Source: Candidatus Aenigmatarchaeota archaeon (GTDB taxonomy: Archaea > Aenigmatarchaeota > Aenigmatarchaeia > QMZP01). Taken from it: a stretch of DNA of 6,970 bases. Below the pieces are notes generated by a model. That model saw only the letters and a program-made list of their open reading frames with translations. It made no database searches and was not told where the DNA came from. Below are positions 3,704 to 5,066 of this stretch, piece after piece; position 1 is the stretch's first letter, and each line of letters starts with the position of its first letter. Position numbers and translations under genes: made by a program. The stretch is from positions 1 through 6,970 of the forward strand of contig VGIZ01000030.1 of NCBI GenBank assembly GCA_016867675.1. Reading direction: 5' to 3'.

Positions 3704-5066
3704 TCAATGACGTTTGGTGGAAGACCTCGCGAACCTTCTCACAACGGAGTGCAGCTCCTCCATGCTCCTGCTGTCCAGCTCGTAGCCTATGCGGACAACA
3801 GGCTTGCTGACCTTCAGCAGCCTCCTCAGGTCAATGGGCGTGGCGGAAATCACGACATCGCAATCAGCGCTGTTTATCGTCTGCCTGAGCTCGCCGACCT
3901 GGCGGCTGCTGTAGCCCATGGCAGGCAGGACATTGCCAATGTGCCTGAAATTTTCAAAAACCTTCCGTATTGAGCCGACGGCAAACGGCCTGGGGTCTAT
4001 CGCCGTGCAGCCGTGCCTCTGCGCGGCAATCATGCCCGCGCCGTATGCCATGCCGCCGTGCGTCAGCGTCGGCCCGTCCTCCACGACCAGCGCGCGCCTG
4101 CCCTCTATCGCCTTCGGGTCGCTTGCTGTTATCTCGGAATCAGCGTCAATTATCCTCGCAGCAGGGTTGTATTTCCTTGTGTTCGCGCGCACAGCCTCTA
4201 TGTTCTTCTCGTGCGCGCTCCTTTCCTTGTTTATCACCACTATGTCAGCCATGCGCAGGTTGGTCTCGCCGGGGTGGTATGTTATCTCGTGGCCGGGCCT
4301 GTGCGGGTCTGCTATGACAATCCTCAGCCCTGACCTGATGAACGGGAAGTCGTTGTTGCCGCCGTCAAAGACTATGATGTCAGCCTCCTTCTCCGCGGCA
4401 CGCAGTATCTTCTCGTAATCAACGCCTGCAAAGACCACGACTCCGGCGTCAATGAGCGGCTCATACTCCTCGCGCTCCTCTATGGTGCATTTCTGCTTGT
4501 CCAAATCCCCATATGTTTCAAAGCGCTGGCAGACCTGTCTTGACAGGTCGCCGTACGGCATGGGGTGCCTTATTGCGACAACCCTGTAACCCTCACCCTT
4601 GAGCACCCTGCAGATGGCGCGCGTGGTCTGGCTCTTGCCGCAGCCTGTGCGCACGGCAGTGACAGATATCACGGGCTTCCCCGGCTTCAGCATCGTTGAT
4701 TCCGGCCCCATGAGCCAGAAGTCCGCGCCGCAGGCAAGCGCCAGCGACGCCACGTGCATGACATGCATGTGGGGCAGGTCGCTGTAGGCAAGGACAACGA
4801 CACCCGCTTTGAATTTCTTTATCAGCGCAGGCAGCTGCTCCTCGGGGAATATTGGTATGCCCTTGGGGTAGAGCCTTCCTGCAAGCGCCCGTGGATAACG
4901 CCTGCCTGCTATCCCTGATATCTGCGCAGCCGTGAAGCAGGCGACATTGTAGTTCGGATTGCCGCGGAAGAACATGTTGAAGTTGTGGAATCAGGGAAAC
5001 ATCAGGCTACCCGGATGTTTTGTCCCTTCCAGCCGCTCCCATTATGATTACATTTCTTCTGCCCAT
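3704..5066 (-). CDS. COG2403 predicted GTPase / cyclic 2,3-diphosphoglycerate synthase family, gene split by a 31-nt BHB intron
   Basis: Exon 1 is 5066-5022 (15 codons, MGRRNVIIMGAAGRD) and exon 2 is 4990-3704 (FHNFNMFFRGN onward). Joined they encode 443 residues, close to the usual length of the family. The N-terminal VIIMGAAGRDFHNFN is the conserved opening of COG2403 proteins. Later come GRRYPRALAGRLYP (about 44-57), a P-loop-like TAVRTGCGKSQTTR (126-139), RHPMPYGD (about 156-163), VFDGGNNDFPF (222-232), VVINK (266-270, NKxD-like), EDGPTLTHGGMAYGAG (319-334) and a C-terminal Rossmann-like CDVVISATP segment (from 392). The characterised methanogen member cyclises 2,3-diphosphoglycerate with ATP (cpgS); whether this one does is unknown, as many members are annotated only as GTPase. 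Read without splicing, the frame hits TAG after 19 codons, and the longest downstream frame starts at ATG 4975. A TATA-like box 24 nt upstream suggests a leaderless mRNA. Confidence 0.88.
4991..5021 (-). other. Putative 31-nt archaeal mRNA intron with canonical bulge-helix-bulge motif
   Basis: The minus-strand RNA folds as follows. The outer exon-exon helix is UGGA (5031-5028) with UCCA (4989-4986). The central 4-bp helix is AGGG (5027-5024) with CCCU (4996-4993). The 5' bulge is ACA (5023-5021) and the 3' bulge is GAU (4992-4990). The inner intronic helix is AAACAUC (5020-5014) with GAUGUUU (5003-4997), around a 10-nt loop. All pairs are Watson-Crick. Cutting between bulge bases 2 and 3, as archaeal tRNA splicing endonuclease does, removes 5021-4991 exactly. 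Exons then join in phase 0 between the GAC (Asp) and TTC (Phe) codons of the family motif GRDFHNFN. The intron contains an in-frame TAG. RtcB-type ligation would be expected. Confidence 0.85.

Follow-up and report, generated by a model that had tools for sequence, protein, structure and literature searches.

Watanabe (2002) is said to have described BHB introns in the cbf5 pre-mRNA of Crenarchaeota. In archaeal rRNA, BHB introns such as that of I-DmoI encode LAGLIDADG nucleases. According to the available part of PMC2738675, the cbf5 introns measure 16-44 bp, which leaves no room to encode a nuclease, and introns have been predicted in further protein genes. By 2020 one BHB intron in archaeal mRNA, that of cbf5, had been reported besides a 5'-UTR case in HVO_1309, as stated in the accessible portion of PMC7714728. 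Collaborative homing was defined for the cyanophage nuclease F-CphI and its partner, a group I intron in psbA (PMC6083498, excerpt).

The window analyzed here is a 6,970-nt stretch representing contig 30 of a Candidatus Aenigmatarchaeota genome (G000), which is 772 kb in size and 64% complete. A gene on its minus strand, named COG2403 in the original prediction, is split by a 31-nt insert with an in-frame stop, and the coordinates given there for this insert were right (Table 1). Without the 31 nt, GAAGRD runs on into FHNFN in phase 0, and the motif GAAGRD-FHNFN, expected to be uninterrupted in relatives, reads continuously in the alignment of the uninterrupted genes. The automatic gene call starts at the ATG at 4975, inside exon 2. 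The exon-2 protein is 54-66% identical to its relatives and has no family in Pfam or NCBIfam; the joined protein yielded a weak match in the PDB to cyclic 2,3-diphosphoglycerate synthetase (E 5e-4). The upstream neighbor of the interrupted gene in G000 is an acetate-CoA ligase gene. Elsewhere in the window lie three consecutive lipoprotein-like genes with similar starts, and the two of them that were searched gave no Pfam family.

The proposed geometry of a 3-nt bulge, a 4-bp helix and a 3-nt bulge, all Watson-Crick, was reproduced at the junction, and cutting after the second base of each bulge removes the 31 nt and restores the frame. The frame-restoring cuts coincide exactly with a canonical 3-4-3 BHB. 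Shuffling the intron letters against fixed exons gave P = 0.03 for four central pairs out of four at the window's frame-restoring cut. A 66-nt stretch of the coding strand across the junction folded more stably than every one of 200 shuffled versions (z -2.4), and its opposite strand folded unremarkably (z -0.9). The competing 3-4-3 register, which removes 29 nt and breaks the frame, was also present, with -13.0 kcal/mol vs -12.7 kcal/mol for the 31-nt register, and it is the one displayed in the minimum-energy fold. Since the two are about equally stable, structure alone cannot pick the cut in G000, and the reading frame does.

Table 1. Coordinates of the interrupted gene, its predicted intron and related loci (positions are those of the window unless a locus is named).
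Feature	Position or locus	Strand	Description
Exon 1	5066-5022	minus	15 codons, MGRRNVIIMGAAGRD; start codon and motif kept in 7/7 interrupted genes
Predicted BHB intron	5021-4991	minus	31 nt, TAG in exon-1 frame; same-boundary inserts in six other genomes
Exon 2	4990-3704	minus	428 codons and stop, FHNFNMFFRGN...
BHB motif	4986-5031	minus	outer, central and inner helices, two 3-nt bulges
Outer helix	UGGA 5031-5028 / UCCA 4989-4986	minus	4 bp, Watson-Crick
Central helix	AGGG 5027-5024 / CCCU 4996-4993	minus	4 bp, Watson-Crick
Bulges	ACA 5023-5021 and GAU 4992-4990	minus	3 nt each
Inner helix	AAACAUC 5020-5014 / GAUGUUU 5003-4997	minus	7 bp, Watson-Crick
Same-boundary inserts, family f1			G000 31 nt, G021 29 nt, G010 20 nt, G005 17 nt, G019 17 nt
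Same-boundary inserts, other families			G041 24 nt (f6), G062 32 nt (f14)
G000 rtcB insert	L233 (G000:C3), between 7147 and 7109	minus	34 nt
Other rtcB insert loci	L285, L286, L288-L299		inserts at PDGH-GYG(F/L)P motif
Lipoprotein-like genes	1-480, 529-1560, 1731-2879	minus	three consecutive genes, similar starts (VASGCTIPGLGG, VSGCTSLDLSG)

The junction was surveyed in 156 Candidatus Aenigmatarchaeota genomes, 64 of which matched the joined protein. G016, G103 and G112, with fragments or weak partial matches only, were left out, and 61 readable junctions were obtained. Relatives with and without the insert, whose existence had been left to a search of related genomes, were both present: 54 of the 61 genes were uninterrupted, and seven, in G000 and six further genomes, carried 17-32 nt at the identical codon boundary. 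Outside the phylum, the junction was uninterrupted in all 78 named loci that were best by similarity. All seven interrupted genes have an exon 1 of equal length with the motif GA(A/Q)GRD, and this stretch can be aligned with the 54 uninterrupted genes. The G062 insert was spotted by eye; the automatic script had classed this gene as continuous because the end letters of the insert mimic codons for RD. An assembly error was rejected, as the inserts occur in seven separate genome assemblies. In G020 (L018/L041), a stop follows codon 255 of exon 2 in the homologue, and another, partial copy is found elsewhere in that genome.

Helix covariation, suggested as a check on the BHB, was evident in that each further insert has its own compensating BHB. 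All seven junctions have two 3-nt bulges on opposite strands around a 4-bp central helix, which at the frame-restoring cut forms 4/4 pairs in 7/7 genes, with one G-U pair, in G062. The inner helix has 7, 3, 4, 2, 3, 7 and 4 bp and the outer helix 4, 3, 3, 4, 0, 4 and 3 bp in G000, G021, G010, G005, G019, G041 and G062, respectively, the value of 0 denoting a leading T-T mismatch in G019. When 3-4-3 motifs were listed blindly for each junction, the true cut ranked first in five and second of six in G062; for G019 two other sites were listed and the true one was missed because its first outer pair is the T-T mismatch. The exon half of the central helix covers an Arg codon (AGG, AGA, CGT or CGC), and the intron half changes to match: pair 3 is G-C in three genes, A-T in two, T-A in one and C-G in one, and pair 1 is A-T in five and C-G in two. 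Helix halves from the same gene formed 28/28 pairs vs 121/168 for swapped halves, with 15/42 swaps perfect. Assuming independent inserts, the seven shuffled-intron chances for a 4/4 helix multiply to 1e-13. A group I or group II intron was rejected, given that Rfam had no match in the window, L020, L021 or L158 and that 31 nt is too short for a catalytic core.

EndA-family genes were detected in 141 of the 156 phylum genomes and RtcB in 136. The window's genome encodes both an epsilon2-type EndA and RtcB (the latter at G000:C3); positions 20-402 of its EndA (402 residues queried) align with the ARMAN-2 epsilon2-type EndA 4fz2 at 348 bits. Epsilon2-type EndA has a broad substrate range according to the available sections of PMC7714728 and PMC12397907. 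EndA is of the long form in G005 and G019 and has 225 and 202 residues in G010 and G041; no EndA match was found in the incomplete genomes G021 and G062, and no RtcB match in the incomplete genomes G005, G019 and G021. The data indicate that the insert is very probably an intron spliced by EndA and RtcB.

In a quick maximum-likelihood tree of the 61 exon-2 proteins, the seven interrupted genes occupied seven separate branches and needed seven changes, and the starred branches force seven. In two same-genus pairs, only one member has the insert: G041 but not G114, and G021 but not G011. The seven changes could represent several gains, or many losses of an old intron. Because the inserts are unlike in length and sequence, we favor repeated gain; remodeling of one old intron could also have produced such unlike inserts.

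Open frames of 362 and 441 codons precede the interrupted gene in G041 and G019, ending 74 and 51 nt before exon 2. Relative to the start of exon 1 (-69 and -62), the frame ends just before it in G041 and overlaps it in G019. Both products matched LAGLIDADG_3 (PF14528) at 30.5 and 26.8 bits (cut-off 22.5), and they are 49% identical to each other over 338 residues. Near the start of the G041 frame there is a GTG but no ATG. The database search gave 20 proteins of this family, including the query's own (P0001), and the acidic motif residues E62 and D179 are invariant in 20/20. A search of PDB sequences with the nuclease yielded no match. Its structural model had a mean pLDDT of 92.7, and the 18 Foldseek matches at E <= 0.001, whose whole-length TM-scores were low, were LAGLIDADG nucleases, inteins, a maturase or WhiA. 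By motifs and modeled fold, the two neighbors belong to the predicted LAGLIDADG homing endonucleases. The G041 nuclease had matches in 18 of the 156 genomes, but beyond the G041 and G019 copies the best was 27% identical, at 69 bits. Only these two close copies exist in the 156 genomes, and both abut an interrupted gene, in families f6 and f1.

G114, a close sister of G041, lacks the nuclease, and its gene is uninterrupted. The upstream gene, which we take from its motif to be carbamate-kinase-like, ends 164 nt before exon 2 in G114; in G041 the same gene is followed by the nuclease, exon 1, the insert and exon 2. The match between the two genomes resumes 3 nt before exon 2 and continues at 93% identity over 1,353 columns. 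Exon 2 shows no difference in its first 90 nt, whereas exon 1 agrees at 35/45 positions. Gene conversion starting at a cut close to the junction would leave such a divergence pattern, although exon 1, at 45 nt, is short. Separately, the sequence upstream of exon 1 in G114 (L144/L267) is hairpin-rich, resembles the end of a mobile element and is partly repeated downstream of the gene in G041 (80% over 107 columns).

No nuclease was found upstream in the other five of the seven interrupted genes, G000 included, and tblastn detected no nuclease relics in the window. The upstream gene in G005, G010 and G021 is presumably NAD(P)HX-dehydratase-like, as named from its motif, and that in G062, on the other strand, is assumed to be ScpA-like. 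G021, with the insert, and its relative G011, without it, have the same neighbors and no nuclease beside either gene. For the G019 nuclease locus, no matching empty allele was found. Distant relatives of the nuclease are free-standing at L272, L274, L275 and L276, three of them antisense beside what we take to be topo VI-like genes and one upstream of a presumably helicase-like gene. LAGLIDADG-like frames were also seen within archaeal 23S rRNA genes at L273 and L277 (G003:C4 and G024:C7), the usual intron-encoded arrangement.

A nuclease gene adjoining the interrupted gene in two relatives would explain how the mini-intron spread, and we consider it reasonably probable that the insert is both a BHB intron cut by EndA and joined by RtcB and a descendant of collaborative homing. 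The tRNA-splicing endonuclease EndA would cut the 31 nt out of the mRNA at the BHB, and RtcB would join the exons. A free-standing LAGLIDADG homing endonuclease would target the conserved site in the uninterrupted gene; we infer that the G041 and G019 nucleases cleave this site. The mini-intron would split the target, sparing the carrier's own gene, and splicing would keep the gene working. The window's copy would have arisen by collaborative homing and later lost its nuclease neighbor. The evidence for splicing is strong, and our confidence in the two parts together is restrained because that for homing comes from two genomes and a single empty allele.

A less probable but serious alternative is that the BHB intron is spliced by EndA and RtcB as above and that its spread is unrelated to homing, through repeated origin or inheritance with frequent loss. 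The exon's ready half-BHB would then drive the origin, and the adjoining nucleases would be incidental or use the locus for intronless homing. The five interrupted genes without an adjoining nuclease agree with this, and the exon letters do make up the first central-helix half and most of the outer pairs. Among the 54 uninterrupted genes, 24 have GGA as the Gly codon, so part of the BHB motif pre-exists. However, the chance of both close nuclease copies falling among the 7/61 interrupted genes is 0.011, and G114 is without both nuclease and insert. Exon 2 starts with TTCCAC, as a shared target after the cut would give, in 6/7 interrupted vs 13/54 uninterrupted genes (p = 0.003, uncorrected for relatedness).

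A decaying pseudogene, or a protein that starts in exon 2 at the ATG at 4975 with exon 1 as a relic, is very improbable. The gene caller picks 4975 and a broken copy occurs in G020, of the same family, but in 7/7 genes exon 2 stays open over 421-430 codons, the motif and start codon of exon 1 are kept in all of them, and the residue at the ATG is not conserved (V, T, L, M, L or V in the other six). Random indels in relatives, which the original prediction had associated with a pseudogene, are not what the inserts show, as they share one boundary with a BHB in each. Least credible of all is that the ribosome skips the insert in uncut RNA by programmed bypassing or frameshifting: bypassing in T4 gene 60 likewise involves a hairpin and an in-frame stop beyond the take-off codon, but the take-off (GAC/GAT) and landing (TTC/TAT) codons are unmatched in the seven genes, the unlike inserts of 17-32 nt keep the BHB geometry at the cut, including the pairs between exon and intron end, and G000 has EndA and RtcB genes.

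A BHB intron of this kind may not be confined to one gene. Many of the RtcB matches were broken off or contained stops, and 21 rtcB loci were read, consisting of G000's own and 20 others, of which 17 were chosen as broken-looking and G010, G020 and G041 served as controls. An insert of 16-34 nt was present at the active-site motif PDGH/GYG(F/L)P (or PDMH) in 15 of the 21 loci, those of G000, G003, G008, G014, G050, G056, G065, G090, G094, G095, G097, G115, G120, G123 and G126. The gene was continuous at the motif in G051, G062, G010, G020 and G041, and G110 was unreadable. All 15 inserts have a stop in the unspliced frame, and their removal restores the motif. Their BHB is weaker or relaxed, with 49/60 central pairs (4/4 in four inserts and 3/4 in 11, the odd pair being G-A), and the better BHB was chosen among cuts that restore the motif equally, which favors the pairing count. 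Shuffled inserts reach equal pairing with P of 0.007-0.28 each. At GFDI/NCG, the G050 rtcB (L289) carries another apparent insert, also with a stop.

A scan of the G041 contigs for further BHB introns in protein genes gave 92 candidates vs 87, 79 and 80 in three decoy geometries, and three in the strongest class vs one, two and four; with no excess over the decoys, the scan identifies no further introns. The known junction was its second-best locus. A CBF5 search, with matches in 134 of the 156 genomes, revealed no recurring break among the matches listed. The match at G098:C6 falls into two parts (profile 8-173 and 163-320), which are separated by about 1.6 kb and lie in long open frames; an intein or a large insert may be the cause.

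For the BHB intron spread by collaborative homing, a more specific form, to which we give an even chance, is that conserved codons are entered by a single cassette, made up of the free-standing nuclease gene, a 5' exon that replaces the resident one and a BHB intron of 17-32 nt. The intron in such a cassette would be an immunity to the nuclease that splicing can remove, and repeated rounds would have left nuclease-free mini-introns in the COG2403-named gene and perhaps also in rtcB. If rtcB is similarly interrupted, the splicing ligase would need its own activity for its own mRNA, a testable loop. A nuclease gene outside the intron and a matched empty allele offer a testable answer to how mini-introns spread. 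Mini-inserts also mislead gene calling, as the conserved exon 1 is lost from the predicted protein.

The rarity of BHB introns in protein genes, as originally noted, agrees with the available parts of PMC7714728 and PMC2738675. New beyond the original prediction are the recurrence of the insert, the adjoining predicted homing endonuclease and rtcB as a second host gene. No paper combining COG2403 and intron was found, and the titles and abstract openings among the matches listed contained no intron in a COG2403-named gene or rtcB, with bioRxiv and most subscription journals outside the scope of the search.

Among known systems, rRNA introns of the I-DmoI type likewise couple BHB splicing to LAGLIDADG homing, but the nuclease gene lies inside the intron there and outside it, upstream of exon 1, here. 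In cbf5 of Crenarchaeota, as covered by the accessible part of PMC2738675, short BHB introns are also found at a conserved motif of a protein gene with patchy gain and loss, of 16-44 bp vs 17-32 nt here. The present case is in another gene and another phylum, its motif is canonical 3-4-3 whereas that of cbf5 is often relaxed, and a predicted homing endonuclease stands beside the gene in two genomes, none being described for cbf5 in that part of the source. The Haloferax volcanii HVO_1309 transcript also has a BHB in mRNA for the splicing endonuclease (PMC7714728, excerpt), located in the 5' UTR; here it lies within the coding sequence and its cutting is predicted. F-CphI and psbA (PMC6083498, excerpt) differ in having a self-splicing group I intron and an EndoVII-type nuclease in phages, whereas a protein-spliced BHB mini-intron and a LAGLIDADG protein on an archaeal chromosome are proposed here. 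As in the phage system, a free-standing nuclease gene in G041 adjoins a gene with a predicted intron in the presumed target, and a related genome, G114, is without both.
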